Origin: a virus
Length of the DNA: 48,995 nucleotides
Virus record (IMG/VR): IMGVR_UViG_3300030104_004070
Coordinates: 1 to 48,995 of that record
Strand: one strand, 5' to 3'
The notes under the pieces were generated by a model. That model ran no database searches. It had not been told where the DNA came from and saw only the letters and a list, made by a program, of their open reading frames with translations. Below are positions 5,564 through 44,395 of the stretch, one piece after another. Made by a program: the position numbers and the translations under genes. How positions within the stretch are numbered: position 1 is the stretch's first letter; every line of letters begins with the position of its first letter.

Positions 5564-5770
5564 CTATGTCTTTCTCACCGATTTGTAACGAATATTTGTT
5601 TTGACTTCATGACTTACCATTTCCGACATTTCATCACAACATTTACTCCACATATCTCTTGCTCTTTCAGTTTCTTCACTATGCATATCTACGTCCCACA
5701 ATTTCTTCCACGAGTACCAGAGGTAGGTACACTCCTCTGACTTCTTCTGTAAGTGGGGTTCCCGATACAT
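5564..5770 (-). CDS. Small charged protein, unknown
   Basis: The 68-residue product is highly charged, with Trp, Cys and Met unusually frequent (WYSWKKLWDVDMHSEETERA; SKCCDEM). It has no membrane helix. Its ATG overlaps the stop of the nucleotidyltransferase gene by one base at 5770, which supports that it is translated. No family recognised. Confidence 0.65.
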   Translation of the reverse strand: MYREPHLQKKSEECTYLWYSWKKLWDVDMHSEETERARDMWSKCCDEMSEMVSHEVKTNIRYKSVRKT

Positions 5771-6231
5771 CAGATACCAAGCAATTTTCTCTGCCTTTCA
5801 AAGTATCCTTTCAAGATCCAAGAGCTGCTATTCATCTTATCGTCACCACCCACACTGAACTCAAATTGAACTCTGGGATTATTACCATACATGTCTAATT
5901 CTGGTGTGTTACCTTTCTGGCGATCTCCACCATTACAGAATACGACAGTTTCTGCGATCTCTAAGCACTTAGCAATGGCACCACATGCAGATCCTACTTC
6001 ATCATCTGGTACGGTAATCACTGCATCAACCATCTCAAGATGACGTACAATTTCAGCACGTTCAACCCAAGACAGAAAATATTGTCCTTTTTTATCAGTC
6101 AACCATTCATTAGTATTCAGTCCTACCACAAGGTAATCAGAGAAATCTTTTGCTCTCTTAAAATATGAAATATGGCCACTGTGGATAGGATCAAATCCGC
6201 CAGTGACCAAACTAATTTTCTTAAAAAACAT
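5770..6231 (-). CDS. Cytidylyltransferase-like nucleotidyltransferase
   Basis: The 153-residue product opens with the nucleotidyltransferase signature GGFDPIHSGH (His17-x-Gly-His20, the HxGH motif that binds the nucleotide triphosphate). The rest matches the compact Rossmann-like fold of RfaE/TagD-type enzymes, which join CTP or ATP to a phosphorylated sugar or alcohol. Closest in style are the heptose- or glycerol-phosphate enzymes. The canonical second motif (ISSTxxR) is replaced by MNSSSWILKG, so substrate class and activity are uncertain. It could feed the glycan genes further on. Confidence 0.85.
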   Translation of the reverse strand: MFFKKISLVTGGFDPIHSGHISYFKRAKDFSDYLVVGLNTNEWLTDKKGQYFLSWVERAEIVRHLEMVDAVITVPDDEVGSACGAIAKCLEIAETVVFCNGGDRQKGNTPELDMYGNNPRVQFEFSVGGDDKMNSSSWILKGYFERQRKLLGI

Positions 6232-11663: not shown

Positions 11664-12485
11664 TTATCCCACCTCTTGTGCTGCTTTCGCAGCAGAGTTC
11701 TCGGTAATTCGACCGAGATATGGATCATAGTTCATATAATCAGCGATGTCAATACTGGCACCGTTTTGAGCCCAGAAATTAGTAAGAGCATTAAAGTTAC
11801 CTTGATGGAAGACTCCAACATGTTCTGGATGAATGGATGATCCAAGTTCCGTCTTGTAAATCAAGAGCGGAATAGAATACGTGTTACCTGAATTGTAAAT
11901 TAAATCGTCAGCAACAGCCCGTGGTTTAGAACCATTGTCCAATTTATACTTGTTTTTTCTACAATGAAAATGGACTAACTTTTCTGCATGGCGACGATTG
12001 ATCAAATAACATGCGGTGGAGAAATCATTAACAAACCTCTTATGAAGTTTCACATGGATATCTCCAGTGCAGATAATTGCAATTTGAACAACATCCCAAT
12101 CATATGGGATGTGTGCATAAAAATCTTTCCAAGTAAAATTCCAATACCTGACAAGATCAAGATTGCAATCATCTTCCATCATTATAGCATAAGGACTATC
12201 AGATGTGGCAAGCCAATGTTTAATTGCTTTAAGATGTGAAGTAGTGCAACCAATTTCTCCACTAGTCATATTGTTGGGATATTGTCCCACAAGAATATCA
12301 CTGAGATCATCCTCTCTGCCATCATAGGCAGAAATGCGTGTAACACTATCCTCTATCTCCCAATACTTAAATTGGTTTTCCATATACTCCCAACGGTCAG
12401 TTTGACCATCAAGATTGATACAGTAAATTGGACCGATTCCTTTTAGTTTAAAAGTAGATTTGTTCTTATCAATAACTTCAGTCAT
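11664..12485 (-). CDS. Family 25 glycosyltransferase
   Basis: The 273-residue product opens with the GT25 phrase IYCINLDGQTDRWEYM, followed by a GEIGCTTSHLKAIKHW segment and the metal-binding acidic cluster MMEDDC (residues about 102-107). Members add galactose or similar sugars from nucleotide sugars in lipooligosaccharide synthesis. It is the last gene of the 15-gene glycan chain, overlapping UDP-glucose dehydrogenase by four bases. The target is unknown. Confidence 0.85.
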   Translation of the reverse strand: MTEVIDKNKSTFKLKGIGPIYCINLDGQTDRWEYMENQFKYWEIEDSVTRISAYDGREDDLSDILVGQYPNNMTSGEIGCTTSHLKAIKHWLATSDSPYAIMMEDDCNLDLVRYWNFTWKDFYAHIPYDWDVVQIAIICTGDIHVKLHKRFVNDFSTACYLINRRHAEKLVHFHCRKNKYKLDNGSKPRAVADDLIYNSGNTYSIPLLIYKTELGSSIHPEHVGVFHQGNFNALTNFWAQNGASIDIADYMNYDPYLGRITENSAAKAAQEVG

Positions 12486-13597
12486 AAATCAATCCAATAT
12501 ACAGCCTCTTTAGGTGTTTCAAAACTAATTCTCTCATCAACCTGAGACTTGATCTGATCTTCCATCACATAGATTTTATAACCAAGATCTAAAAGATCTT
12601 TACAGAGACGATACTGTTGACTCTCTGTGAGAATATCTGTCCCTTTCTTATATGCTACCGACTGAAAACTAAATGGCAACTTCTCTACATTCTTAGATAC
12701 AAAATAATTTACCAAGAACCTAGCATGCTCATCATTAAAGTTATCTGTCGTCGCACCTAGATTATATTCAAGTCCAAGTTTTTCTGCATAGGCAGCAAAG
12801 GCACGATTGTCTCTTGGTAGACAAGGACCACCATACCCATACCCATACTTCAGATACTTACCACCAACTCTAGTGTCTGCACCAATTGCTTGTAATGCCA
12901 AATCAATCTCATCACCAAGGCCTGCAAGAGTCATAACCTCACCGACCATATTTGCATAACTGATCTTTGTAGTTAAGAAACAGTTGACTGCCAATTTGAC
13001 CATCTCAGCTGAGGTGGTAGACATGAAACTAATCTTTGGTTCTGTCTCTTGAATCTTATGATATATTTCACATAGATCTGCATAGATCAGACTATTATTA
13101 CCACCAATCAGAACCATATCTGCTCGTCTCAAATCACGCACAATCGATCCCTGAGCAATAAACTCTGGATTGTAGAATACCTCCACACCAAAGTGACCCA
13201 GTTGATCTGCAATCTCTTTACAGTCTCCCGGATTTGTTGTACAACCAACCACTAGTGATTTGCCGTTTAATTTTGAAGTTGACTTCTTAAAGTCATCAAC
13301 AACTTGCCAAACAGATCTTACATCATAAGAACCATCTGGAAGCGATGGTGTGGCAACAAGAGTGTAAATGATGTCACACGCTTCAATAACTTCTTGATTA
13401 CTAGTCGTAGCAGTTAGATTTGTTGACTCAAGCAACATCCGTTGAACTTCAGGTTCATTAGTTTGAATTGTATTATTCTGAAGACCCTTTACATAGTCCT
13501 CTCTACAATCAGAGACTACAACTTCATATCCTGCTTGTTCACAGAGAAGGGCGAAACAAATGCCAAGCCTCCCTGCACCAATTACTCCAATCTTCAT
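12482..13597 (-). CDS. UDP-glucose 6-dehydrogenase family enzyme
   Basis: The 371-residue product has the NAD-binding GAGRLG (residues 7-12) and the catalytic set of the UDP-glucose/GDP-mannose dehydrogenase family: Lys201, Asn205 and Cys259 (GYGGPCLPRD, with Asp263). The enzyme oxidises a nucleotide sugar to the uronic acid, using two NAD+ per molecule. UDP-glucose is the likeliest substrate, though the sequence alone does not exclude other nucleotide sugars. It sits four bases into the NAD synthetase gene, which could supply its cofactor. Confidence 0.92.
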   Translation of the reverse strand: MKIGVIGAGRLGICFALLCEQAGYEVVVSDCREDYVKGLQNNTIQTNEPEVQRMLLESTNLTATTSNQEVIEACDIIYTLVATPSLPDGSYDVRSVWQVVDDFKKSTSKLNGKSLVVGCTTNPGDCKEIADQLGHFGVEVFYNPEFIAQGSIVRDLRRADMVLIGGNNSLIYADLCEIYHKIQETEPKISFMSTTSAEMVKLAVNCFLTTKISYANMVGEVMTLAGLGDEIDLALQAIGADTRVGGKYLKYGYGYGGPCLPRDNRAFAAYAEKLGLEYNLGATTDNFNDEHARFLVNYFVSKNVEKLPFSFQSVAYKKGTDILTESQQYRLCKDLLDLGYKIYVMEDQIKSQVDERISFETPKEAVYWIDL

Positions 13598-14352
13598 AGT
13601 TTAAACGTCGGGATAGGTTCCATCTTATGCTTATTCTTTGTGTTAAAATCGTGCAAGATTCTAACAGCAGGGCCAGTGCCGTGCTCCATCGCGTATTCTA
13701 AATCTGCGTATGAGGCACCGATTTGTGTTTCATCAGTCCTTGAATCATCCCACAGACCGTCTGTAGGTGGTGCATCAATAATGCGTTGATCTACGCCAAG
13801 ATGCTTTCCAAGTTCCCATACTTCAGTTTTATATAGATCAGCAATAGGAGCGATGTCAACACCGCCATCACCATATTTAGTATAGAATCCTACACCATAA
13901 TCCTCAACTTTATTGCCAGTTCCTACAACAATACCACCAGTAGATCCTGCGACTTGATACAGAGTTACCATACGCATACGAGACTTGGTATTTGCATTTG
14001 CAAGACCGCTACCAGTATATTCATCTTTACTTGTCCAGAGATCAAAAGTTGTGATGAATGTTGTATAGACAGCTCCAAGATCAATTCGGATCTTGGTTAC
14101 ATTCTCATAGTTGTTTTCAAGATAAGTTGTATATGAATCAGAAAGATTATCATTCTTAGTACTTGATTTCAAAGGCATGGACAAAACATACGTAGGCATA
14201 CCAGTTTCAGCACAGAGAGTGGCAACCACAGCGGAATCAATGCCGCCTGATACACCAACAACTAGTGATTTAATTTTGTACTTTTTTGCATACTCGCTGA
14301 TCCACTCAACGATATTCAGTTTTAGTTTAGAGTAATCTTCGATTCTATTCAT
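13594..14352 (-). CDS. nadE: NH3-dependent NAD synthetase
   Basis: The 252-residue product has the PP-loop SGGIDS (residues 35-40) that binds ATP pyrophosphate and the NadE signature GTGNKVEDYGVGFYTKYGDG, followed by LYKTEVWELGKHLGV. It has no glutaminase domain, so it would take ammonia directly to amidate deamido-NAD. The start at 14352 was chosen because its ATG overlaps the preceding stop (ATGA); an in-frame ATG at 14364 is an alternative. It lies between a fucosyltransferase and UDP-glucose dehydrogenase inside the glycan block. Confidence 0.92.
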   Translation of the reverse strand: MNRIEDYSKLKLNIVEWISEYAKKYKIKSLVVGVSGGIDSAVVATLCAETGMPTYVLSMPLKSSTKNDNLSDSYTTYLENNYENVTKIRIDLGAVYTTFITTFDLWTSKDEYTGSGLANANTKSRMRMVTLYQVAGSTGGIVVGTGNKVEDYGVGFYTKYGDGGVDIAPIADLYKTEVWELGKHLGVDQRIIDAPPTDGLWDDSRTDETQIGASYADLEYAMEHGTGPAVRILHDFNTKNKHKMEPIPTFKL

Positions 14353-15200
14353 AGGACAATCCAATCAGGGCAATAAAGGTCTTTGGTATCTTTGTCTGCA
14401 TATGCAGGTCCAAACCACATCTTTGGTGCAATGACTTTCTTATCAGGATTAGAGATAAGCCAGGCACCCCACCAACTCATAGAACTATTAGCAATAATAG
14501 CATGAGAACATAAAGACATCAAGCACAAATCAGCATATGGTGTGAATGATCCGTCAGCATACTTATCTTCTGGTTCTGAAATTAAAAATCTGTCGCCTGA
14601 GAAAAACTCTTGTTCTTTAACCCAATCGACAGAATCGGAGAAAACAACCACAGGTTGTTCTGGGTCAAACATTGCAAGTGCTTTCTCATAGTATTCAATA
14701 GGTTGCACTGGATGCATTGAACCACATTGAGTATAAGACCACTTAAATCCACGAACATCTGTAAGATTAGGATCTCCTCTACGGACATGGAGCATGATGG
14801 GCTCTTGACCTTCAAGTTCTTGCATCATTTTTTGACAAGGAATCAAATGCTCATCATGAAAGGTAAAATCTTCACGAATGATGTCTACAATGTTACTAAA
14901 ATATCTCCAAGATTGAAAGAATCCATAGAGACTTATATTGTCTGGACATTGTTCAAACAATTCATTAGAGAAATGAAAGTGTGGTTCTTGAGCATATTGA
15001 AACTCTTCAATAACACCCTCTCTTCTTTCCATTGATAGTTTAAAACATTCATGGAGACTATAGTTTTCAATTCCTTTTCTATTTGGTGGAGGAATGCACC
15101 AGTCATATCCATGATGAGCAGCAATACCACGAAGAGCAGCATACTCAAACATTTGATTTCCGAGTCTCCCAAGACTCCCTATATGATTAAAGGCTAGCAT
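14349..15200 (-). CDS. Alpha-1,2-fucosyltransferase (GT11), copy A
   Basis: The 283-residue product has the GT11 start LGNQMFEYAALRGIA, the donor-binding HVRRGD at residues 138-143 and the SSMSWWGAWL motif near the C terminus. The family transfers fucose from GDP-fucose to galactose in O-antigen or related glycans. It is closely related to the GT11 gene at 16734 (NHIG..GR.GNQMF.YAALRGIA in both), so the pair looks like an old duplication. No GDP-fucose synthase is obvious here, so the host may supply the donor. Confidence 0.9.
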   Translation of the reverse strand: MLAFNHIGSLGRLGNQMFEYAALRGIAAHHGYDWCIPPPNRKGIENYSLHECFKLSMERREGVIEEFQYAQEPHFHFSNELFEQCPDNISLYGFFQSWRYFSNIVDIIREDFTFHDEHLIPCQKMMQELEGQEPIMLHVRRGDPNLTDVRGFKWSYTQCGSMHPVQPIEYYEKALAMFDPEQPVVVFSDSVDWVKEQEFFSGDRFLISEPEDKYADGSFTPYADLCLMSLCSHAIIANSSMSWWGAWLISNPDKKVIAPKMWFGPAYADKDTKDLYCPDWIVL

Positions 15201-16002
15201 ATTTTTTAAGATAATCTTGTTGCGAATAATACTCTAGTAATTGCTCACGATTCATATTTTGAATCTTATCCCATTCTGAATTATTAGATTCCATGTGTGG
15301 ATTAGAGAACCAAGAGTTCTCTCCTCGTGCATGTTCTAAATGATAGACTGGTTTACCAAGTCTACCAATCTTGTACCCAAGTTTAACAAACCTGAAATAT
15401 CTTTCTTTGTCTTCTGGTGCATATGCTTTGAAGTTTTCATTTTCCATACCACCATCAATATAAACTTTACGACTAAAGAACTGAGCCCATCCAAAATCAG
15501 ATGTAGATTCTTCAGAGACTGCATCTAAAAACGTATAGTCACCAGTCTCCAAAAACTTAGATACCGTAATATCAGTTGCTGCAACTTTCTTTTGGAAGAG
15601 TCCAGCACCATATGGATAGACTATATCATATATTCCTTCCACAATTCCAGTGTATGCTAATACATAGGATTCAATCGGCAAAATAACATCGCAATCATAG
15701 TTAACTACAATTTCAGTCTTCGCCTCCATGATCATTTCATTGAGAACTCTCTGTCTATGAAAAAGTGGTTCATGACTTTCCTCAAAGATATGATGAACAT
15801 TCACAGGAACATCACAAATATCTTTCAGAATTGGCATTGCCTCTTCTTGAAAAATTGATCTAGAATCCACTTCTTTGACAATAATATTTGTTTCAAAGTT
15901 TTCCAATAGGAAAGCTATAGTGGTAATGACATTTCGCATTCTATCAGCAGATTCAATCCTGATAGGAATAATGAATGTTGCTTTAGATAAATCAGTTCTC
16001 AT
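15187..16002 (-). CDS. GT-A-type glycosyltransferase, galactosyltransferase-like
   Basis: The 271-residue product starts with a family-2-like strand (ATFIIPIRIES), has a DCDVILP acidic motif (about residue 103) that fits the metal- and nucleotide-binding DxD of GT-A enzymes, and a C-terminal region (FGWAQFFSRKVYIDGGMENENF then APEDKE) that resembles the acceptor-side domain of beta-galactosyltransferases. Sugar and acceptor are unknown. It overlaps the fucosyltransferase by 14 bases and the next glycosyltransferase by 11. Confidence 0.8.
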   Translation of the reverse strand: MRTDLSKATFIIPIRIESADRMRNVITTIAFLLENFETNIIVKEVDSRSIFQEEAMPILKDICDVPVNVHHIFEESHEPLFHRQRVLNEMIMEAKTEIVVNYDCDVILPIESYVLAYTGIVEGIYDIVYPYGAGLFQKKVAATDITVSKFLETGDYTFLDAVSEESTSDFGWAQFFSRKVYIDGGMENENFKAYAPEDKERYFRFVKLGYKIGRLGKPVYHLEHARGENSWFSNPHMESNNSEWDKIQNMNREQLLEYYSQQDYLKKYASL

Positions 16003-16747
16003 CTGGATACTTTCTGTTTCTTATGAACTCTGGATATTTTTCTTGAACATAATGATACTCACCTCTGTTCATCATCCAGTTTCCCTCTGGATGCTCAATC
16101 ACACAATCATACTGTGATGTTGCCTGACTACTTACTCTATCATCGTGCTCACGGTTTGCAACCAATACACTAGAAATAAATTTGGGCATTCCATTGTTCC
16201 ACCTCATTCTATGATAGAAATCAGTGTCAAGCAAGAGTTTGAGATTAGTGTCAAACTCCACCTTACAATCATTTAGGAAGGAAACAACGGAAGGACTGCT
16301 AAGAAGATTTCTACCCTCCAAAGTTTGATCTGCCCACACGGGCATTTTATAATTCACATACCTACCGTTTCTTAATTCACAAAAACCACTGAAAGCCCAT
16401 TTACACTCAGGGTCCTGATACTGTTCATTAATTTTCTCAAGAGCAGTATCATCTACAAATACATCATCCGAGAACATAACTTTGACAATCTTACCTTCAC
16501 AATTATCAAGGGCAATGTTTATGTTCTCACAAGGAACATTCCCCTCATATCTAATGAAAGTAAACTCAAAGTCGTCAGAGTATTCTTTACAGACATCTAA
16601 GATATTGTCATTCTTACTTTGATCAGAAACAACAATATCAATATCCTGAAAGGTCTGACTCTTAATTGAGTCAAAGAGTTCTCTCAACCACTTAGGGCCA
16701 TTCTCACCGCGATCATGACACGGGATAGCAATACTAATTTGCGACAT
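15992..16747 (-). CDS. Family 2 glycosyltransferase
   Basis: The 251-residue product has the GT2 opening ISIAIPCHDRGENGPKWLRE, then DIVVSDQSKND, and the acidic SDDVFVD motif (about residues 93-99) for nucleotide-sugar and metal binding. Such enzymes add one sugar from a UDP or GDP donor during polysaccharide assembly in the cytoplasm. It sits in the chain of glycan genes, overlapping both neighbours. Confidence 0.85.
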   Translation of the reverse strand: MSQISIAIPCHDRGENGPKWLRELFDSIKSQTFQDIDIVVSDQSKNDNILDVCKEYSDDFEFTFIRYEGNVPCENINIALDNCEGKIVKVMFSDDVFVDDTALEKINEQYQDPECKWAFSGFCELRNGRYVNYKMPVWADQTLEGRNLLSSPSVVSFLNDCKVEFDTNLKLLLDTDFYHRMRWNNGMPKFISSVLVANREHDDRVSSQATSQYDCVIEHPEGNWMMNRGEYHYVQEKYPEFIRNRKYPDEN

Positions 16748-17549
16748 CTAGATACTCCCAATCTTGCTGGTAAATGTCCTCAGGATCCTCTCCATCAGGT
16801 CCAAACCATAGTTTAGGACCAATCACCCTATTATGTCCTGCCAACCATGCTCCCCACCAAGAGAAGGTAGAGTTAGCAATGATGCAGTAATTACACATGG
16901 ACATCAAACACATGTCATGTACATTGTCGCTTTCAGAGACAAAGAATCTATCAGAAGCAAAAAACTCATGACCGAAGGCCCATGGAGGATCATCAGTAAA
17001 AACAAAGACAGGAATATCCTCAGGTAGTTTAGACAGTGCTTCTTCATAGTAACTAATAGGAAGCACAGGATGATATGTTGGTTTGATTAGGTGATCTGTG
17101 CGACGAACATGTAAAGAGATTGCTTCTGTGTGTCCTTCAACGGTGACAATCTCTTTCCAAATATCATTACACAGTTTTTTCACATCATCCCTAAACTCAA
17201 AGTCTTCACGAACTTCCTCTTCTGCATTCTTAAAATACTTTTCAGATTGAAAGTATCCATACAGATTTGTATCATCAGGACACGTCTTTACAAGAGCATC
17301 ATTATATCTAAAAGTTTCCTCTTGAGTATAACCTGCATTCAACAATCCGATATTCTTAGCACCTGACATCTTGAATGCCATGAAAAGTTTATGCTGTTCT
17401 TCTTCGTCAGTAAACTCATCATCAGTTCTAGGCCCATCAGGAATAGTAAAGTCATATCCTCTTGCCTTTGCTATGCCTCTCAGAGCAGCATACTGAAACA
17501 TCTGGTTGCCAAAGCGACCATTCTTTCCAATGTGATTATGTCCGATCAT
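16734..17549 (-). CDS. Alpha-1,2-fucosyltransferase (GT11), copy B
   Basis: The 271-residue product has GRFGNQMFQYAALRGIA at the start, HVRRTD at residues 147-152 (the donor-binding motif, with Asp in place of the final Gly-Asp) and NSTFSWWGAWLAG near the end. It is the closest paralogue of the enzyme at 14349. Two GT-A enzymes separate the copies, so the four genes may form a duplicated transferase module. Confidence 0.9.
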   Translation of the reverse strand: MIGHNHIGKNGRFGNQMFQYAALRGIAKARGYDFTIPDGPRTDDEFTDEEEQHKLFMAFKMSGAKNIGLLNAGYTQEETFRYNDALVKTCPDDTNLYGYFQSEKYFKNAEEEVREDFEFRDDVKKLCNDIWKEIVTVEGHTEAISLHVRRTDHLIKPTYHPVLPISYYEEALSKLPEDIPVFVFTDDPPWAFGHEFFASDRFFVSESDNVHDMCLMSMCNYCIIANSTFSWWGAWLAGHNRVIGPKLWFGPDGEDPEDIYQQDWEYLDVAN

Positions 17550-18256
17550 GATAATTCAACTCCTGGTGGCAAGCGATAGTGGAAACCAAATGGGGTGATA
17601 CCCTCTGCTTCAGGCACTCTGGTTTCCTGAGAGAACCTGACGGCAACATCTACGGGAGCATATTGACATCCCTCAGATTGGAAGATGTGACGATTGTGAA
17701 CACAGACGTTTCCATCCTCGTGATAGTTTACCACACCTTCAGGCATCCAGTAAAAATCACTATTGTTTGTTTCCCAAGGAACTTCTACTTTGGTAGGAAC
17801 CTCAAGAAATTTTTTACTCCTTAGAGAAAACCCACCGTTACCCACACGCCAGTGTCTACCAAAGGGGTCAATGTATGCATCTTCTTTATACTCCCAAGGA
17901 GCACCAATATAATCATACTTCAACCATTCATCATCCCATTTATCGGGGAACAATACAAAGCCATCTGGTTGAACTAGAAGACAATGTGAGGTATCAATGT
18001 GATTGTGGAGATCATATACAACATAGTGGTTGTAATCATTATAGTTTTTGATCTCAGTAACTGGTTCTTCTAGAGTAATATCTTCAGATTCAAGAGAACG
18101 ATTTTTTTCTATCTGTTCTTTGGTGGTGATAATTTTAACCTTACCGAAGTTAATTCCACTCATACTCGTATAGACACCATTCAGAGTTCCAGAGAGGTCA
18201 TCTGTGGTGTCTATAGAGACTAGGGTTACATCAGGCAGATTTTGCATAGTAATCAT
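17546..18256 (-). CDS. DUF5672-like putative glycosyltransferase
   Basis: The 236-residue product resembles DUF5672 proteins found in glycan clusters: LPDVTLVSIDTTD at the start, FVLFPDKWDDEW, YIGAPWEY and the strong GNGGFSLRSKKF segment near residue 165. These proteins are thought to be glycosyltransferases, but the reaction is not established. Its 5' end overlaps the next upstream gene; ATGs at 18280, 18256 and 18247 are in frame and none has a clear ribosome site. I chose 18256. Confidence 0.7.
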   Translation of the reverse strand: MITMQNLPDVTLVSIDTTDDLSGTLNGVYTSMSGINFGKVKIITTKEQIEKNRSLESEDITLEEPVTEIKNYNDYNHYVVYDLHNHIDTSHCLLVQPDGFVLFPDKWDDEWLKYDYIGAPWEYKEDAYIDPFGRHWRVGNGGFSLRSKKFLEVPTKVEVPWETNNSDFYWMPEGVVNYHEDGNVCVHNRHIFQSEGCQYAPVDVAVRFSQETRVPEAEGITPFGFHYRLPPGVELS

Positions 18257-19169
18257 GAGCAAACTGTTTGCAAGATTCACTTTGATAAAGATATCCGTTT
18301 TTATCTAACCACAACCACCGTTCATCATCAACAATGCCATCTTTCATTCTCCACCAACCATTAGATCGACTCCAGTCAAACCAATACATTGGCGCAATCA
18401 CATTGCATAGTTGATTACTAGTCCAGATAGGCCAGAAAGCAAACGTAGATGCAGAGATGATAGCATACTTAGCATTGTTTAGGATGCTGTAATCCATCGA
18501 GACAGGACCACCAGGATACTGATACCAAGAAATGTTTCTTTGGTATTGATCTTTCTCTTCTGACACAGCAGAACCGACTATAGACACTCCAGGTAACATC
18601 TTTCCTGCAGTGTTAGGATCATCAGTAACAATCACAAACTGAATGTCAGGATTGTTTTCACGCATCCTCTCCATGGCATTATAGTAATACTCAGGGGGAA
18701 GCATAGAGTGTCCTGTGGTGTAATCTCCACCACGAAGTTGAATCACGCAAATATCATCAGACGAATAGTCAGTGATATTATACTTCTCATCATAGGTCAA
18801 CCAACTACAGATCTTATCTCTATGCGGTTCAATATAACTCATTCTCTGGAATGTGCCATTAATATAAGTTCTATCTTCTAAGTTCCAGAAGTTCTTATCC
18901 TCATCTCCAATCTCACCAGGAGCTGATGCATGATGAATCCACTCCTCTTTGTAGTAATGATCGAAGTCTTCATTAGGCGAGAAGTCATCATCTTGTTCTA
19001 CATTAAGACTGACTTCTTTTCCCCAGTCTATATTTAAGAACGGACCTCTCCAACCAGGATGACTCACACCCCACTCATACCCTTTGTGCTCTGCAAAAAC
19101 TCTACAAGACACATAACGCCAAATCTGATTACCAAGACCGGCATGTTCATGAATACTCGCTGCTAACAT
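18231..19169 (-). CDS. Divergent GT11-like fucosyltransferase
   Basis: The 312-residue product keeps the GT11 layout: GLGNQIWRYVSCRVFAEHKG at the start, LRGGD at residues 145-149 where others have HVRRGD, then VIVTDDPN and an ISASTFAFWPIW segment corresponding to the C-terminal motif. The missing His and first Arg of HVRRGD make the donor uncertain. The C terminus is longer than in the two other GT11 genes. Confidence 0.78.
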   Translation of the reverse strand: MLAASIHEHAGLGNQIWRYVSCRVFAEHKGYEWGVSHPGWRGPFLNIDWGKEVSLNVEQDDDFSPNEDFDHYYKEEWIHHASAPGEIGDEDKNFWNLEDRTYINGTFQRMSYIEPHRDKICSWLTYDEKYNITDYSSDDICVIQLRGGDYTTGHSMLPPEYYYNAMERMRENNPDIQFVIVTDDPNTAGKMLPGVSIVGSAVSEEKDQYQRNISWYQYPGGPVSMDYSILNNAKYAIISASTFAFWPIWTSNQLCNVIAPMYWFDWSRSNGWWRMKDGIVDDERWLWLDKNGYLYQSESCKQFAHDYYAKSA

Positions 19170-19171
19170 TA

Positions 19172-19777
19172 TTATCTCCTATGATATAGATTACTGTACT
19201 TTTTTCGCAGAATGGTAAGACCATTGTGCCAAGGCAAAGTAGACCATTCCCAGAATTGTGGATTGAGTTCTGCTACTGCACGATAGGGACCTCCACCATC
19301 CCACTGAGGACCACCATGAGCCATATCACAATGATAGAAGGGTTCAGTATTCCCATACATCAAATCATGAAGAAGAATGATGCTAGTAGGACCAACCAAT
19401 TCATCTAACAATTCAAGTTGTCGTTTTACATGAGGGTAGGAGTGCCAGTCATCAACAAAGATAACATCAATTTTGTGATCTTTAGGCCAATCCTCTAGAA
19501 ACTTAATGCTATCACTTTGAACAAACTCATAGTGTTTGATATCATCAAACCCATTCACAATTGGAGTATATTCAGATGGTTGATTAAGGTCTACAGACCA
19601 TAACTTACCACCATTTGCCCTTGCTGCTTTATACAAAGGTTCTGAGGTATGTCCCTCTCTTACACCAAGTTCAACATAGGTCTTACCTCTGGACGCAAGT
19701 GCCATTGCATAGATGGAGATAAGATGACGATCAGAGTCCATCTCACCATGCAAGGCTTTCTCAACAAATTTATCCAT
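19172..19777 (-). CDS. Class I SAM-dependent methyltransferase
   Basis: The 201-residue product has a SAM-binding motif I (YVELGVREGHTSEPLYKAA), an acidic SVDLNQP after strand 2 and IDVIFVDDWHSY, fitting the Methyltransf_24 type. It probably methylates a sugar or surface glycan given its neighbours. It follows the GT11-like gene upstream by two bases. Confidence 0.82.
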   Translation of the reverse strand: MDKFVEKALHGEMDSDRHLISIYAMALASRGKTYVELGVREGHTSEPLYKAARANGGKLWSVDLNQPSEYTPIVNGFDDIKHYEFVQSDSIKFLEDWPKDHKIDVIFVDDWHSYPHVKRQLELLDELVGPTSIILLHDLMYGNTEPFYHCDMAHGGPQWDGGGPYRAVAELNPQFWEWSTLPWHNGLTILRKKYSNLYHRR

Positions 19778-20711
19778 TTACAGGGGCGAATCCATTTACA
19801 ATGTTATCAAAGAAACCTGGGAGAGTCAATCCTTCAAGACTCATCTCCTGGGCTTGCTGAAACAAATGATCATTCTCAATCAGAAGATCTTCTGTGACTT
19901 CGGAATATTTATCTACGAATAAGACTGGATAATCTTTAAGCAATTCTTCTAAGTATGGATGTCTCTTTATGACTGGAACTCTTCTCATGTAGATGACTTC
20001 CCAATTACGATGACAATCAATGGCATTTCCTCTGGGACAAATCATAAACTTAGACTGACTCAAATTATAGAGAAAGACTGAGAAAGGAACTCTATCCATA
20101 TGAACTTCTGCCCAAGGTTTATCATTAAAATAATCCTTGATACCCACTCTCTCGCTATGAGAACTTTCATTATGACTCACATACAGAAGTCCTGGTGGAT
20201 TCTTTGGCAGTGTTTTCATGTAACTTTTAATGTCTTCATTCCTATTGTCATTAGGATTCATCTTTCTTTGTAATCCATATGGTGCAGGAATTACTTTTCC
20301 ACCAAAGGTAGCAGCGTTAACTGCAGAGATACACAATACATTCTTGGGAATCGCATCATAAATGTACTCATCGATAGAAGTATCTTCTAAGTTAGTGAAG
20401 ATGATGAACTTCATATCGGGGAAGTTTCTACACAAACTAAGAAGATCACTCTTTTGCATCATTGCCCTTACAACAGGCCAATCTTCGGGTTTAACCTCTT
20501 TAATCTCTCTTTTATATAAACGAATATTATCAATAAACAAGGTCATATAATTTCTGCTTTTCTTAATCTCAAAGAGTTTGTTGACAAACTCAAGGTTCAT
20601 AAGACTTGCATCTTTCATAAAATGGGTGTAGATATTTCCCCACTGACCAGCTTGATCTCCAAAAGAATAATCACACAGTTGAGATAGTGCTACACCTTCA
20701 ATCAATTCCAT
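19770..20711 (-). CDS. Exostosin-like glycosyltransferase
   Basis: The 313-residue product has a C-terminal domain with the pattern of exostosin/GT47-type enzymes: KFMICPRGNAIDCHRNWEV, then RRVPVIKRHPYLEELL and a glycine-poor helix. In that family this part binds the nucleotide sugar. The N-terminal half is less clear. It overlaps the methyltransferase by eight bases and the GT17-like gene by ten. Confidence 0.7.
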   Translation of the reverse strand: MELIEGVALSQLCDYSFGDQAGQWGNIYTHFMKDASLMNLEFVNKLFEIKKSRNYMTLFIDNIRLYKREIKEVKPEDWPVVRAMMQKSDLLSLCRNFPDMKFIIFTNLEDTSIDEYIYDAIPKNVLCISAVNAATFGGKVIPAPYGLQRKMNPNDNRNEDIKSYMKTLPKNPPGLLYVSHNESSHSERVGIKDYFNDKPWAEVHMDRVPFSVFLYNLSQSKFMICPRGNAIDCHRNWEVIYMRRVPVIKRHPYLEELLKDYPVLFVDKYSEVTEDLLIENDHLFQQAQEMSLEGLTLPGFFDNIVNGFAPVNG

Positions 20712-21559
20712 GGTTTAATAAATTCAGAGTACTTCTCTTGATTGTTTACAATGTATTCTGGATAGGTATCATCAATTGGAACAGCAGTGTAAGTCATTCC
20801 ACGATTCAATGGATCAAGTCCCTGAGCCACCTTCTCCTCTGCATTAGAGATGTTAGCATCGGTATTGTTTTCTGTGTGTTCATATGATGCTAATTTCAGT
20901 TTGAAATTTTCAGCATTGCCAAGGAAACTAAAGTGCCAACCTCCCTGCTCAATGCGATGTGCATTGGCATGGTCCTGACGATGTTGATCAACCGTAGTGG
21001 ACTTTAAGTGTTTCCAGGTGCAGATCCTAGAACCCATCCAGTCATCCTGATACAAGAAGTTTAATTTATAGTAATAGGCATTGCAGAGAGTCACATAGTG
21101 ATTGTTAGGATCAAACCAAGAAAGATCCTCTAAGACATATGGATTAATGATCTCATCAGCATCACTAGTAATCACCATGTCCTCATCGGATGCTCCTGCT
21201 TTCTCAATACCAAAAGCACTATTATTTCTATTGAAGATAGCACGTTGGAAGCGAATAGGAATATCAATGAACTTAGTTCCGTATGGATCTTTATCATTAT
21301 AGGCCACATGATACTTAGTTTTTTCAAGCATGTGACTAAAATCATTAGGAATCTCTTCGGTCACATAATGAATAATCTTATCATTCAACTTTCCAAAAAG
21401 ATCTTTATTCTCTTGATAGTAGAGAGGTTTCTCATTACCACTTACGGTAAAAGGAGACTCAGTGAGAACAAAGTAATCGACAACATCATTAAGAATATTC
21501 AGTCGCATCTCCAATAATTCTAGTTCGTTGAAGAAGATAAAGGAATCAAAGACTTTCAT
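20702..21559 (-). CDS. Family 17 glycosyltransferase
   Basis: The 285-residue product starts with the typical GT17 phrase VFDSFIFFNELELLEMRLN, followed by VVDYFVLTESPFTVSG and an acidic VITSDADEI motif (about residues 130-138). The family is known as beta-1,4-N-acetylglucosaminyltransferase in animals and is common in bacteria and large viruses with unknown acceptors. The late part with WHFSFLG also matches. It overlaps its neighbours by four and ten bases. Confidence 0.88.
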   Translation of the reverse strand: MKVFDSFIFFNELELLEMRLNILNDVVDYFVLTESPFTVSGNEKPLYYQENKDLFGKLNDKIIHYVTEEIPNDFSHMLEKTKYHVAYNDKDPYGTKFIDIPIRFQRAIFNRNNSAFGIEKAGASDEDMVITSDADEIINPYVLEDLSWFDPNNHYVTLCNAYYYKLNFLYQDDWMGSRICTWKHLKSTTVDQHRQDHANAHRIEQGGWHFSFLGNAENFKLKLASYEHTENNTDANISNAEEKVAQGLDPLNRGMTYTAVPIDDTYPEYIVNNQEKYSEFIKPWN

Positions 21560-22311
21560 TTAATAGTACCGTACATTACCTTTGGATTTGATTCTACACC
21601 ATGTTCGCCATAAAAATCAATATCATGAGTATCTGACATGATTTCTACAAACTCTTGATGAGACATATTTCCATGATCAACATGAAAATCGTTGTGCATT
21701 AGATAAAAATTATTTGATTTCTTTACAAACTTATCAATATATTCCATCTGAGTTTCACGATCACATTCAGACAAAGCATAGTTGCTAATGAGGAGATCGA
21801 AGTTTTCCTCTACATCAATCTCCTCACTACGATGAGATAAAGAAGGAAGATTAAACCAAGCAAGATATTTACGAGAGAGTTCATTACACTCTTCTAAGTC
21901 AATTAAAAGATAACTTTCAAAATCAATAAAGGAGCTCAAAACTTTACAGAGACCACCATAACCACCACCAATTTCAACAATAGACTTTATGTCTGTGCCA
22001 AATTTATTAACAATGTCAGATGAATTTTTAATGTATCTAATGGTGGTAGGTGACATTGAACCTACATTAGGATAATCAAACATGACTGGATTGCCAACGG
22101 TGTCATTCTTTTTGATTTCATCTAATTTATCTTGATAGTCAATTTCTATCTCGTCAAGATAAAGTTGACCTTCTTCTCTAGATACATGCTCTAATACATG
22201 ACGATATGCTTCATCACGTTTAAAATTATTATACTTATTAGTATTCACTGCTGCTGCATGACATACCTGTAGATATGGCACTACTGCAGAATCTTGTAGA
22301 GTCCAACTCAT
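21556..22311 (-). CDS. Putative sugar O-methyltransferase
   Basis: The 251-residue product has the SAM-binding IVEIGGGYGGLCKVL segment and LLIDLEECNELSRKYL, typical of the putative sugar O-methyltransferases found in O-antigen clusters. The N-terminal part (about 110 residues) is helical and probably shapes the acceptor site. The ATG at 22311 overlaps the previous stop (ATGA); a TTG at 22317 is also in frame. It would cap or modify a sugar made by the surrounding enzymes. Confidence 0.82.
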   Translation of the reverse strand: MSWTLQDSAVVPYLQVCHAAAVNTNKYNNFKRDEAYRHVLEHVSREEGQLYLDEIEIDYQDKLDEIKKNDTVGNPVMFDYPNVGSMSPTTIRYIKNSSDIVNKFGTDIKSIVEIGGGYGGLCKVLSSFIDFESYLLIDLEECNELSRKYLAWFNLPSLSHRSEEIDVEENFDLLISNYALSECDRETQMEYIDKFVKKSNNFYLMHNDFHVDHGNMSHQEFVEIMSDTHDIDFYGEHGVESNPKVMYGTIK

Positions 22312-22988
22312 TTGCAAATAACCTCCTTACAATCCAAACCTAACATGGTTTTATATGGTTTCCATCTTTCCTCTGGGACGACTGTAGGATCGATCCACCA
22401 GTCCTCATAAGGATTCCCCTCATTCATTACATTCTTAGCAACCAATTGATATCCGTGTGATTTCAGAATACGTATCTGTTCATCCTGAGTGTCAGGCCCA
22501 TCAGCATAGACATCGGTTTCATATGTAATGACAGAATATCTATATTCATCTAAAGGAAGTGCCTTGAGAGCATTTAGAGTTTGTTCAGCAGGTTCAATAT
22601 CAAGTTGAAGATAATCAATTTGTTTGGGATAGTTTCTCTGTTTAAATAGAAGTTCGTAATCAAAGTCTGTTGCATCTGCACAGACACATTGATTTCTTCG
22701 CATCGTGTTGAAAAACAGAACCTTATCACCATCTAGTTCAAAGGATACACCCATCCAATCAAACTCAGTTTCTAGGAGATAGGTATTGCTGATAACTCTT
22801 GGTTGGTCTGCACCAATCTCAACATACACTCCATTCTTCTTACCATCAAGCATAGACAAAACAAACATGTCTTGCATTGATTGTGACCAGTTGTTTTCCA
22901 CATTTTCAGATCCAGGAAACTGATACTTCAGACTATCAAAGTCAGATTTAAAATACCTGGGGCAATTTGGCCAATTAGATTCTTGCAT
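22308..22988 (-). CDS. FkbM-like methyltransferase
   Basis: The 226-residue product has YVEIGADQPRVISNTYLLE, then SFELDGDK and IDYLQLDIEPAEQTLNAL, the pattern of FkbM-family SAM methyltransferases. Related enzymes methylate sugars or polyketide groups. I chose the ATG at 22988 because GGAAGA lies upstream at good spacing; an in-frame ATG at 23003 is inside the preceding gene. Confidence 0.8.
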   Translation of the reverse strand: MQESNWPNCPRYFKSDFDSLKYQFPGSENVENNWSQSMQDMFVLSMLDGKKNGVYVEIGADQPRVISNTYLLETEFDWMGVSFELDGDKVLFFNTMRRNQCVCADATDFDYELLFKQRNYPKQIDYLQLDIEPAEQTLNALKALPLDEYRYSVITYETDVYADGPDTQDEQIRILKSHGYQLVAKNVMNEGNPYEDWWIDPTVVPEERWKPYKTMLGLDCKEVICK

Positions 22989-22990
22989 AA

Positions 22991-23983
22991 TCAGTTCTTC
23001 CAATATTCGTAGATTCCCTCTGTAACTTCATACTCCATATTTTTTACTTTTCTGTTTGGTTGCTTCATTGCCCAAACAAACATGTCTTCAATCAACTCTT
23101 CTAGTTTAGTATTGTCCTTAAACTTGAGTAGGCTTTTTGCTTTATCATGATTACAATATGCATGCTTTGCTTCATGTCGTGGTGGAGCATGTTCGATAGG
23201 AACATCATACCCATACTTCTTACCAATGGATTGAACTGTCTCGGCAACTTGATTCAGACTAAAGTATTTGTCTGCACCAATGTTAAAGATTTCACCATTA
23301 AATTCAGACAAGAGAATATCAAATGGTTCCATATAGTATCGGATATCAGAGAATGCACGAGTCTGTTCCCCATCACCGTAAACAAGAATGGGTTGACCAT
23401 TCAAAGTCTTACGAATAAAGATACCAATCACATTACGATACCGATCCCAAATGTTCTGGTAGATGCCTAATACATTATGAGGACGGACAATATTATATCG
23501 CAATCCAAACTGTTGATGAGCCATCTTCAGATCACACTCTACAGCATACTTTGCCATGCCATAGGGATCAATCGGTTGTGGTTGTTTATCCTCTGTGAAA
23601 GGAGGTTCTTGTGCTCCATATACTGCCATACTAGAAGTAAAGATCATCTTTGCACCATAAGTGATACATGGATTGATCAAGTTAGCAGAACAGAGAAGAT
23701 TGTTTCGATAATTATAGTTTCTAATGAAAGGAGACAATCCTTCTGCAGCGTAAGCAGCAAAGTGCAGTAGAACATCAGGGCGATGCTCTTCAAAGAGTTC
23801 CTCTACTTTTTTACGTCTTTCTAGATTGAGTTTTACAAATTGAAAGTTTTCACCCTTTGGGATAAATGCTTTATGACCACCAGATAAGTCATCAATACCG
23901 ATGACCTGGTGGCCGTTTGCCATCAAGTGGCGACTATAGTTTGCACCGAGCAATCCAGCACAACCTGTAACAAAGATTTTCAT
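22991..23983 (-). CDS. NAD-dependent sugar epimerase/dehydratase (GalE-like)
   Basis: The 330-residue product has the NAD-binding GCAGLLGANY (residues 7-16), the SSMAVYG catalytic Ser/Thr strand and Tyr-x3-Lys (YGMAKY) of the short-chain dehydrogenase fold. The phrase DDLSGGHKAF fits GalE-like 4-epimerases. It would convert one nucleotide sugar to another for the transferases in the block. NAD+ is a tightly bound cofactor here. Confidence 0.87.
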   Translation of the reverse strand: MKIFVTGCAGLLGANYSRHLMANGHQVIGIDDLSGGHKAFIPKGENFQFVKLNLERRKKVEELFEEHRPDVLLHFAAYAAEGLSPFIRNYNYRNNLLCSANLINPCITYGAKMIFTSSMAVYGAQEPPFTEDKQPQPIDPYGMAKYAVECDLKMAHQQFGLRYNIVRPHNVLGIYQNIWDRYRNVIGIFIRKTLNGQPILVYGDGEQTRAFSDIRYYMEPFDILLSEFNGEIFNIGADKYFSLNQVAETVQSIGKKYGYDVPIEHAPPRHEAKHAYCNHDKAKSLLKFKDNTKLEELIEDMFVWAMKQPNRKVKNMEYEVTEGIYEYWKN

Positions 23984-24795
23984 CTATATTCTAGAATAAA
24001 TTTACGTTGCTCTTCTGTGTTTTTCCAACTGCAAGGTAAAACAGGAAGATAATTTTCCAATTCCATCACATGCACATTGACACTAGTATTAAATAGCATA
24101 CTATAATTTAGATGCTCTGTCAATAATAGATCTGTAGTATAAAGATTCTCAAGCACTGAAGAACATAGAGCTGCTGCCATAGCAAATGTCCCTACTCCAG
24201 ACAATGCCACATTCTTGGCATTTTTTAATGTTGCAAAGTCATCCGCAACTGTGGATGATTGAATCTGAACCTTACCAATTTTCTTAAGTTCATGAACAAT
24301 AGGATTCTTATCATCTGGTTCTGTGATAAGAATAACTTTCTCAAAAGAATCAATGAGATTGAGGTAATAAATTAAGGGGTTTGGAATATAGTTTGTCGGA
24401 GGATCAAAAATTCTATGATAGTTATCGCCGCTACGGAGATGCATCACGATTGTTTCATCACCGATAACTTCTTTTTTAGGGAGCGCAAGAAAAGGAGATA
24501 CAAACTTTTTACAAACCTCATGCATATTTTCATAGACATGCTCTTTGCTTATACCAATTTCATTACCACCTTCAAGGCAACCTTTTTCACAGTGGACTAA
24601 TGGCTCCCATGCGTAAAATCTACCAGATGCATTAGCATTACCATCCCCAAAAGATATTGCAAACTTAGAAATAATATTATGATCTAAAGTTTGAACAAAC
24701 TCTTGATTATTAAATTTTGCCGACATGATACAGTTGGCAACCTGTTGGATATTATTACCCAACCGGCCTGACCAATGAGAAACAGAGTAACTCAT
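23980..24795 (-). CDS. GT11-like glycosyltransferase, divergent
   Basis: The 271-residue product has GRLGNNIQQVANCI at the start and HLRSGD at residues 119-124, the counterpart of HVRRGD in fucosyltransferases. The C-terminal SGVGTFAMAAALCS replaces the usual SSFSWW motif. It may use a donor other than GDP-fucose. It is the fourth GT11-related gene in the block and overlaps both neighbours by four bases. Confidence 0.75.
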   Translation of the reverse strand: MSYSVSHWSGRLGNNIQQVANCIMSAKFNNQEFVQTLDHNIISKFAISFGDGNANASGRFYAWEPLVHCEKGCLEGGNEIGISKEHVYENMHEVCKKFVSPFLALPKKEVIGDETIVMHLRSGDNYHRIFDPPTNYIPNPLIYYLNLIDSFEKVILITEPDDKNPIVHELKKIGKVQIQSSTVADDFATLKNAKNVALSGVGTFAMAAALCSSVLENLYTTDLLLTEHLNYSMLFNTSVNVHVMELENYLPVLPCSWKNTEEQRKFILEYR

Positions 24796-25640
24796 GAATA
24801 GATTTTTTTCATATCATTGAATACGTTAGCAACTCCATCTTGAATAGATGTCTTTGGTTTCCACCACTGTGTGATATAGGTATCTGCTTCGTTCCTCTTA
24901 TCTTTCTGAACTTCGTCTTTAGATTTTGCTGGGGAAACAGTAACATCTTTCCCAATGTCCTTGAATAGAGATCGAATGATTTCACCAATCTCTAAGATAG
25001 ACGTTTGTTTAAATGAAGTGATGTGGAGATTATCATCGGAACTAAACTCATCATAGTTATTCATAACTGCCTCAAGAGCTTCACAACAATCTTCTGCATA
25101 CAGAAACTCACGTTGTTCAGTTCCATCAGTGAGCATTGAAATGTCACCGGTTTCAAATCCTTTTTTGATAAAGTCAGTAATGACATGTGCCTTTTCCATG
25201 TCATTCTCAATACCATAAACATTCCAGAAATGAACAATCTTACCACCAAGTGATTTGGTATAGAGTTCACCCACACGCTTCATCACACCATAGGGAGAGT
25301 AAGACATGTTACTCATTTGCGATGAGGCGAAGACAAATGGTTTGCCATGCTTTTCAATAAGTCCAAACACATTGGCCATCATACGGGTGTTGTTATCAAG
25401 GAACCCAAATGTATGTTGATACTTCTGAAGATAGCGGGAACCACCAACATCAAACGCAAGGAAGAATACAAAGTCAGATTCTTTGATACAATGTTCCAAC
25501 CATGTACTAGGAATTGCACAGAGATTATACTGTGGTCCTAGATTCTTATCATACTCGGTAACTTCATGCCCTTTTCCACGAAGGTATTCAGTCAAGTAAG
25601 CACCAATTTGACCACTTGATCCAAGATTTAAAATTTTCAT
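24792..25640 (-). CDS. NAD-dependent epimerase/dehydratase
   Basis: The 282-residue product has the NAD-binding GSSGQIGAYL (residues 7-16), a FASSQMSNM strand and Tyr-x3-Lys (YGVMK). It is shorter than most sugar epimerases and lacks part of the substrate domain, so its substrate is not clear; sugar-nucleotide reductase or epimerase activity is possible. It sits between the GDP-mannose-epimerase-like gene and a glycosyltransferase. Confidence 0.82.
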   Translation of the reverse strand: MKILNLGSSGQIGAYLTEYLRGKGHEVTEYDKNLGPQYNLCAIPSTWLEHCIKESDFVFFLAFDVGGSRYLQKYQHTFGFLDNNTRMMANVFGLIEKHGKPFVFASSQMSNMSYSPYGVMKRVGELYTKSLGGKIVHFWNVYGIENDMEKAHVITDFIKKGFETGDISMLTDGTEQREFLYAEDCCEALEAVMNNYDEFSSDDNLHITSFKQTSILEIGEIIRSLFKDIGKDVTVSPAKSKDEVQKDKRNEADTYITQWWKPKTSIQDGVANVFNDMKKIYS

Positions 25641-26680
25641 GAGTTTTCGATTTGTTCAGAGATCCATGTGTATGTTTTACGAATTCCCTCTTCAAGAGTT
25701 TGAGAATAATCCCATCCCAGATTTTCTCTAATCAGATCATTATTAGAGTTACGTCCACGAACACCAAGAGGGCCATCAATGTGCATCTTCCGCACTTCCT
25801 TACCAGATACTTTAGCAGCAGTATCTACCAATTGATTGATTGTCACCATCTCCTCAGAACCAATGTTCACAGGTCCCATGAAGTCTGAGTCCATCATTCT
25901 TCTGGTTGCTTCGATGCATTCGTCAACGTACAAGAAGGAACGAGTTTGCAAACCGTCACCCCATACTTCAATTGCTCCGCCCTCTTCTGGGAGGTGGGCG
26001 ACTTTACGGCAGATTGCTGCTGGTGCCTTTTCTCTTCCTCCTTCCCAGGTTCCTTCCGGTCCAAAAATATTATGATAACGGGCAACGCGAACAGGAATAT
26101 CGTGATTACGATTGTAAGCAAAGTAAAGACGCTCTGAGAAAAGTTTCTCCCATCCATATTCGGAGTCTGGGTTTGCGGGATACGCTGATTCTTCACGGCA
26201 GTCTGGGTTATCTGGATCTAATTGATTGTGCTCTGGGTACATGCAAGCAGAACCAGAATAGAAAATCTTAGTTTCATTTCCTACGGTTTCATTAAACTTA
26301 CGCTGCTCTTCAAGGACATTCAGGTTGATAGACACTGAGTTGTGCATGATGTCTGCATCGTTCTCACCAGTGAAAACAAAGCCTGCTCCACCCATATCAG
26401 CAGCAAACTGATAGATCTCATTAAAAGGAAGATGATACCTATCGGGAACACTAGCATAAAAGTTGCCTCGATATCCTTTAAATCGGATAACACGACTAAC
26501 AAAATCTACATTACGCAGATCTCCCTGAACGAATTCATTTGCTTCCGTATCAGAAAATTCAGGATACTTGAGGTCTACACCGCGAACCCAGTATCCCTCT
26601 GCCCTGAGTCGCTTGACCATATGACTTCCAATGAAACCACCAGCACCTAGCACCAGTGCTGTCCTTGTATATTCAGACAT
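25637..26680 (-). CDS. GDP-mannose 3,5-epimerase-like enzyme
   Basis: The 347-residue product has GAGGFIGSHM (NAD binding), Tyr-x3-Lys (YGWEKL), then GTWEGGREKAPAA, WGDGLQTRSFLYVDEC and GVRGRNSNND, which closely follow plant GDP-mannose 3,5-epimerase. That enzyme makes GDP-L-galactose (and L-gulose) from GDP-mannose. This would give the phage an unusual L-sugar donor. It is the first gene of the glycan chain and is preceded by a terminator of the upstream group. Confidence 0.9.
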   Translation of the reverse strand: MSEYTRTALVLGAGGFIGSHMVKRLRAEGYWVRGVDLKYPEFSDTEANEFVQGDLRNVDFVSRVIRFKGYRGNFYASVPDRYHLPFNEIYQFAADMGGAGFVFTGENDADIMHNSVSINLNVLEEQRKFNETVGNETKIFYSGSACMYPEHNQLDPDNPDCREESAYPANPDSEYGWEKLFSERLYFAYNRNHDIPVRVARYHNIFGPEGTWEGGREKAPAAICRKVAHLPEEGGAIEVWGDGLQTRSFLYVDECIEATRRMMDSDFMGPVNIGSEEMVTINQLVDTAAKVSGKEVRKMHIDGPLGVRGRNSNNDLIRENLGWDYSQTLEEGIRKTYTWISEQIENS

Positions 26681-43144: not shown

Positions 43145-44395
43145 CTACTTTTTTTTCTTATATTTATTTATGAATTCCTCGATATTAAAGTTTCTAATTT
43201 TACCCGATCCAGGGGTCATTGCCTGAACATATTTCCTATACCCACCAGTGCCCACAAGAGTATTTGGATGTTTCTTATCTCTCATCTTACGTTCCATCTT
43301 CTTCTCAGTGTATTCCATCACATCATGTATCCAGGATTTAAACATATAGTTCTCTTTCGTCACACAGATAAGATGATTGGTTCCTCTACGAATAATTTCT
43401 CCAATCAGTCCAGTATTTAAATTCTCTATGATATCACCAATTCTAAAAATATTTTCATTTACATACTGCTCACGAAGTCCTCTGGTATCATACTTAGGTG
43501 CTATCTCCCACATCTCAGCAACTTCTTTCTTTTTCTTTTTAGCACCCATACCCTGACGGACGGCATCAAACATTGCTTGGGTATCACCATCATCCAATTC
43601 TTTTGGTGTCCCTTTACGGAATGATTCAAAGTCATCATCAACAACTGCCTTTCTCATCTTGGATGCTGACATACCCTCTACACCCTCAGCATCCGCATCT
43701 CTTACACCAGCGGAGATGACACGAATTAATTCAAAGTCATACAACTCACCATTATATTTCTGTGCCAGGTTTTCAAATTCTGCTTGACGATCAGATCCAA
43801 CAACAATATTCACATTGCGATATCCTTGCTCATTTGCTAGCACCAGGACATTAAAGATTGATTTCATCTCATCATCATTTATAATGTTCTCCGCATAATC
43901 AGGGAACATCTTCTTCATGAATGAAATCTTCATGTCAGGATCCAGTGGATTTTTCTTAGGATCCTGTGAACGTGATGGATATACTTTTAGGTCTTCACCC
44001 TGTGCTGCTTTCTTAGCAGCAGAAAGTAATTTACCGTGACCAACTGTAGGAGGATTAAATCTACCAAAAGTGACAGTTAGTGTTTCTGTGGATTCCTTAG
44101 AATCTTGAGCATCCCCTTCGCCTGGTTTTGCTCTTTTCGCCGCTGTCTCTTTAGGCGCAGCTTTCTTAGTTTTTGCTTCAGGTTGTGGTTTTGCTTTTCC
44201 CTTTGCAGGTGTCTCATCTTCTGCTTTTGCTTTCTTCTTATCAACAAACTTTAGTTTCCCATCCTCAGTAGTCGCAACAAATTTGCCACGGTTATCTAAC
44301 CAACCACCATGGCCGTCACTCTTCAAGTTCAGTTTTTTCGCCTGCATTGATGCCTGCGATTGTGCCTCTGTAAGGAACTGAAAGAAACTTTTCAT
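43145..44395 (-). CDS. Nucleotidyltransferase-domain protein of the structural region
   Basis: The 416-residue product starts MKSFFQFLTEAQSQASMQAK, an N-terminal style seen in several virion-region phage proteins, then a Lys/Ala/Pro linker. From about residue 105 a nucleotidyltransferase domain appears: TFGRFNPPTVGHGKLL (the HxGH region, here Thr-x-Gly-His), then VGSDRQ and MSASKMRKAV, matching the second motif. The C-terminal third differs. It may be an enzyme packaged with, or made alongside, the structural proteins. Confidence 0.8.
   Translation of the reverse strand: MKSFFQFLTEAQSQASMQAKKLNLKSDGHGGWLDNRGKFVATTEDGKLKFVDKKKAKAEDETPAKGKAKPQPEAKTKKAAPKETAAKRAKPGEGDAQDSKESTETLTVTFGRFNPPTVGHGKLLSAAKKAAQGEDLKVYPSRSQDPKKNPLDPDMKISFMKKMFPDYAENIINDDEMKSIFNVLVLANEQGYRNVNIVVGSDRQAEFENLAQKYNGELYDFELIRVISAGVRDADAEGVEGMSASKMRKAVVDDDFESFRKGTPKELDDGDTQAMFDAVRQGMGAKKKKKEVAEMWEIAPKYDTRGLREQYVNENIFRIGDIIENLNTGLIGEIIRRGTNHLICVTKENYMFKSWIHDVMEYTEKKMERKMRDKKHPNTLVGTGGYRKYVQAMTPGSGKIRNFNIEEFINKYKKKK
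43161..43172 (-). promoter_or_regulatory. Late promoter pair for the 41911-43134 gene
   Basis: CATAAATA (43165-43172) and AATAAATA (43161-43168) overlap on the minus strand, 27-38 bases before the ATG at 43134. Both fit NATAAATA. Confidence 0.6.

Follow-up and report, generated by a model that had tools for sequence, protein, structure and literature searches.

A conserved NAD synthetase-dehydrogenase gene pair is probably a working module of the sugar-coat machinery of marine phages

Single-domain, NH3-dependent NAD(+) synthetases (NadE) constitute the 'type N' enzymes of De Ingeniis 2012 (PMC3376133). A review lists 'NAD synthetase' for 24 of 153 cyanophages, placing it in its photosynthesis group (PMC10452541), and one study grouped it with photosynthetic electron transport (PMC7238727). 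Other described systems include NARP1, which comprises Adps and Namat (PMC12774641), and the WbpS and WbqG enzymes, which make uronamides in O-antigen pathways and have a fold unrelated to that of NadE (PMC7468200). In the open-licence literature, searches on NadE together with a UDP-glucose/GDP-mannose dehydrogenase family enzyme (UGD) in phages, on the amidation of uronates by NadE and on cyanophage nadE turned up no paper that describes this pair.

The labels themselves deserve attention, as the 'putative NAD synthetase' of the isolate P-TIM68 (AIR93507.1, 144 aa; L004:650-1084) is a SegE GIY-YIG endonuclease (PF19835, 185 bits), while the same phage encodes a true NadE as well. Relatives of the 144-aa protein occur in 754 phage records, where they are often labelled NAD synthetase. 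Many of the 'NAD synthetase' auxiliary genes reported in cyanophages appear, from these domain matches, to be misannotated SegE-type GIY-YIG nucleases.

The window analyzed here, a viral contig of 48,995 bases representing a fragment of a phage genome, harbors genes for plastocyanin, ferredoxin, PstS, glucose-6-phosphate and 6-phosphogluconate dehydrogenases and ribonucleotide reductase in addition to seven tRNAs, a combination that identifies it as a T4-like cyanophage, with a presumably cyanobacterial host. On its minus strand, positions 13594..14352 encode a NadE of 252 aa that begins with ATG, scores well above the family cut-offs (TIGR00552, 184 bits against 63.65; PF02540, 164 bits against 21; also phrog_11189) and preserves the SGGIDS ATP loop at residues 35-40, as the initial annotation had proposed. 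The stop of this gene (13594) and the start of the UGD gene (13597) share four nucleotides, ATGA (13594..13597), so that the coupling anticipated from the sequence is confirmed by the ORF coordinates. The UGD (12482..13597, minus strand, 371 aa) belongs to a CxPRDN subtype and matches PF03721, PF00984, phrog_9148 and TIGR03026 (213 bits; cut-off 189.8), with the catalytic Cys, Lys, Asn and Asp intact. Judged by these features, both enzymes are complete and typical of their families.

The pair is embedded in a glycan block located entirely on the minus strand. Upstream, a GT11 family glycosyltransferase gene (14349..15200; PF01531) overlaps the NadE start by 4 nt and, downstream, the end of the UGD gene overlaps a GT25 family glycosyltransferase gene (11664..12485; PF01755). 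The remaining block (15187..23003) contains, according to Pfam, GT2, two further GT11-like, GT17, DUF5672, RXYLT1-like and methyltransferase genes interspersed with genes without assignment. Three NAD(P)-binding epimerases/dehydratases of the SDR type (PF01370; 22991..23983, 24792..25640 and 25637..26680) correspond to the three additional NAD-binding enzymes that had been expected in the block. Elsewhere in the window, two nucleotidyltransferase-like proteins of the RfaE/cytidylyltransferase type are encoded at 5770-6231 and 43145-44395, and two small ORFs with signal-peptide-like starts lie at 853-1817 on the plus strand, opposite to most genes.

Close relatives of this NadE were identified in the isolate phages Bellamy, Sf-FS3, S-SSM7, P-TIM68, S-SCSM2R and HTVC008M, in which a nucleotide-sugar dehydrogenase adjoins NadE or lies one methyltransferase away and the pair stands among glycan-modifying genes. 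A scan of viral NadE, queried with two conserved peptides (GTGNKVE and TKYGDGG) and limited to the best 80 matches, extended the comparison. A UGD was located within two genes of NadE in 88 of 90 viral loci, the other two contigs stopping 746 and 203 bases past NadE, which amounts to 88/88 of the loci with enough downstream DNA; the same 4-nt overlap was observed in 67 viral loci. When at least 2.5 kb of downstream DNA was available, UGD was present in 72 of 72 loci, with immediate adjacency in 60 of them against 6.1 expected and a maximum of 16 in 2000 gene-order shuffles, and dereplication at 85% identity left 43 of 43 loci with UGD. In the reverse direction, NadE was found in all 63 UGD loci with upstream DNA, some of these contigs being shared with the NadE-based set. 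Such recurrence across relatives, together with the excess of immediate neighbors, indicates that the adjacency is not due to chance. The co-occurrence of an NAD maker and an NAD user in one phage therefore holds, the two being tied both physically and evolutionarily, but its description as unusual does not, since phages of this group regularly have the two genes together. Conversely, no UGD was detected near the cellular relatives of NadE (0/80 loci from SAR11, marine archaea, Bacteroidota and Chloroflexota), and several other phages encode a UGD without NadE beside it.

Viral NadE also occurs in a second setting. The NadE genes of L286 and L303 neighbor nicotinate phosphoribosyltransferase or nucleotidyltransferase genes and those of phage G and Xanthomonas phage X1 likewise reside in an NAD-salvage context, in each case without UGD, so that phage NadE is found in at least two settings, salvage operons and glycan loci. 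In five further contigs (L267, L268, L270, L275 and L277), NadE lies directly 3' of a 551-aa ORF, which in L267 is a Cpn60/TCP-1 chaperonin, and UGD is not nearby.

These settings bear on the suggestion, raised in the initial annotation, that NadE replenishes NAD+ after bacterial NADase defences have depleted it. There are phages that rebuild NAD+, and salvage operons can include a phage NadE, as described above; NARP1, however, relies on Adps and Namat rather than on NadE (PMC12774641). A phosphoribosyltransferase of the NadV/PncB (NAPRTase) family (PF04095), as expected for NARP2-like NAD salvage, was present in none of the six isolate cyanophages and pelagiphages carrying the pair, whereas both salvage phages, G and X1, were positive (2/2). 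NadE by itself cannot reuse ADP-ribose, according to established biochemistry, and the NadE considered here keeps company with UGD and genes for glycans instead of those for salvage or defence, while the salvage-operon NadE of phage G, X1 and L286 lacks UGD. In view of this evidence we consider a counter-defence role most improbable, and the two enzymes probably work together as a module of the machinery for the phage sugar coat, not as protection from bacteria that deplete NAD.

Concerning the origin of the pair, each of 17 genomes of cellular relatives contains one strong NadE match, and the search for a second, sugar-linked NadE in cells returned no genome with two matches among 198 Bacteroidota genomes at a 1e-30 cut-off. 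With no second strong NadE in the same genome, these relatives resemble housekeeping enzymes, which makes the use of deamido-NAD (NaAD) the inherited function. Phylogenetic trees, which were built quickly and without bootstrap and contain some long branches, recovered a cyanophage NadE clade (SH-aLRT 98), while the HTVC008M-type NadE fell outside it and grouped, with a support of 97, with NadE from SAR11 and Chloroflexota and with viral NadE unaccompanied by UGD. The well-supported branches require the UGD link to have been gained or lost at least twice; the parsimony count is six. The pelagiphage HTVC008M lineage has thus apparently joined NadE and UGD independently, near the SAR11 NadE, and evolution has apparently brought the pair together more than once. 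Some members of the cyanophage clade have a dehydrogenase of another type, which is only 23-28% identical to the window UGD and is scattered over the tree.

Two metagenomic loci present unusual NadE architectures next to UGD. In L261 (4026-5792), NadE is fused to an N-terminal RXYLT1-like glycosyltransferase homologous to the window ORF at 19770-20711, and in L262 (4121-5674) it carries a 271-aa C-terminal extension. Each is a single metagenomic case, and both point to glycan work; further searches for such fusions led back to these contigs and, for the L262 extension, to a single 45% relative.

The dehydrogenase partner exhibits a distinctive signature. Residues C259, D263, K211 and N216, the GxGxxG motif and the NAD-type D30 are kept in 117/117 NadE-linked UGDs, and all of them (the window UGD at 12482-13597 and 116 others) display CxPRDN and NPxxIAxG; at these positions CFPKD or CLPKD and mostly NPEFLREG are found in the cellular UGDs sampled and in UGDs from phages that lack NadE. 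The best PDB matches are UDP-glucose dehydrogenases (including 3vtf), although the active-site signature differs. The phage signature was also observed in rare cellular UGDs from Chloroflexota-related genomes and one Pseudomonadota genome. No NadE homolog was detected in the flanking DNA read around these cellular genes; the neighbors scanned encode epimerases, glycosyltransferases and radical SAM proteins, and an amidotransferase was sought in three of the six loci and was absent among the neighbors scanned.

Turning to NadE itself, the ATP-loop residues S35, G36, G37, D39 and S40 are identical across the UGD-linked, housekeeping and salvage groups. The same holds for R125, E150, K159, D166, H242 and K243, which by the positions of the HAMAP rule form the sites for deamido-NAD and Mg. 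As GTGNKVE and TKYGDGG served as queries in the viral scan, conservation of those two motifs is biased, which does not apply to the other site residues. A search for convergent pocket changes, defined as residues present in at least three UGD-linked groups and rare in housekeeping groups, returned none, and the residues fixed in the cyanophage clade are Y152, A168, L173, T249 and F250. The AlphaFold model (pLDDT 85.3) matched NAD/NMN synthetases in all of the 50 best PDB matches listed. As for a clustered glutaminase partner, the candidate considered was a 'CN hydrolase' annotated near the UGD of Sf-FS3, which has no Pfam match and was discarded. Mainly because the site residues are the same in all three groups, the best reading is that NadE has been kept as a true NAD synthetase that would support the dehydrogenase.

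The closest solved structure both by sequence and by fold is the Francisella NMN synthetase (3fiu), which raises the alternative that nicotinate mononucleotide (NaMN) is the preferred substrate of the phage enzyme, as it is for Francisella NadE*, and that NAD+ is then formed through a NadM-type adenylyltransferase. The identity to 3fiu is only about 30%, the relatives come from ordinary genomes with no other strong NadE, and a NadM role of the phage nucleotidyltransferase-like genes is putative, so that we regard this preference as very unlikely.

A different reading takes the linkage itself as the clue and supposes that NadE has been repurposed to adenylate the carboxylate made by UGD, with subsequent attack by NH3 converting a nucleotide-uronic acid or glycan uronic acid into a uronamide. 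The two chemistries would fit in series, from alcohol to carboxylate (UGD) and from carboxylate to amide (NadE); the pairing with a carboxylate-forming enzyme is obligate in both directions (88/88 and 63/63), persists with two UGD types 23-28% identical and was apparently assembled independently, and the glycosyltransferase-NadE fusion of L261, the abundance of UGDs without NadE elsewhere and the precedent of WbpS next to uronate genes (PMC7468200) agree with such a role. If true, the phages would make an uncharged sugar with a cassette of two genes, through glycan amidation of a kind unrelated to WbpS. Against it, the deamido-NAD site residues are unchanged in all UGD-linked lineages, without convergent substitution, and neither NadE nor, among the neighbors scanned, an amidotransferase accompanies the rare cellular UGDs that belong to this subtype. 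The unchanged pocket weakens this reading, which would account for the NadE-UGD linkage, and we hold uronamide formation to be unlikely.

We therefore lean, from sequence comparisons, towards NadE and UGD being a phage cassette for sugar-acid synthesis in which NadE acts as an NAD synthetase supplying NAD+. In this cassette NadE would convert NaAD into NAD+ using ATP and free ammonia, and the translationally coupled UGD would spend two NAD+, the number used per turnover in this family, on oxidizing a nucleotide sugar (UDP-glucose being the likeliest) to the uronic acid, which the surrounding glycosyltransferases would incorporate into a glycan of the surface or the virion. By carrying the final step of NAD synthesis itself, the phage may keep glycan synthesis from being limited by the NAD pool of a dying host. 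We infer from the locus the catalytic activities, which sugar is used, where the glycan ends up and that NAD supply is the selective reason. NAD supply is the plainest link for the pair, yet an incomplete one, since NAD+ is recycled by the reaction partners of UGD and not consumed, so that UGD could strictly do without a synthetase of its own, and since in several phages UGD stands without a neighboring NadE. It also fails to explain why UGD, of all NAD users, is the partner of NadE, and it leaves the L261 fusion unaccounted for. Marine phages have seemingly built the same two-gene module more than once, inside glycan islands whose other genes shuffle, which would mean either that NAD+ supply limits phage glycan synthesis in infected cyanobacteria and SAR11 cells or that NadE has a second substrate.

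Compared with known systems, the phage NadE resembles the NH3-dependent NadE (TIGR00552, PF02540) in family score, ATP loop, site residues and fold, with no glutaminase partner detected, but it is phage-borne, locked to a nucleotide-sugar dehydrogenase and, in the cyanophage clade, marked by its own fixed residues. Francisella NadE* (3fiu) is its top PDB match in sequence and fold, at roughly 30% identity, and the phage gene differs in being set in a glycan locus. Phage G, Xanthomonas phage X1 and NARP1 share phage-encoded NAD metabolism, including NadE in the salvage phages, although their partners are phosphoribosyltransferase/adenylyltransferase or Adps/Namat and no UGD link exists. The phage UGD shares domains, catalytic residues and the NAD-type Asp with the UDP-glucose 6-dehydrogenase family (TIGR03026; PDB 3vtf), but carries CxPRDN and NPxxIAxG in place of the usual CFPKD and NPEFLREG. 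Finally, WbpS/WbqG (PMC7468200) offer a parallel in that an enzyme that amidates is encoded close to sugar enzymes producing uronates; WbpS is an AsnB-type glutamine amidotransferase, whereas the phage protein falls outside that family, being a PF02540 NadE for which an amidase role is putative.
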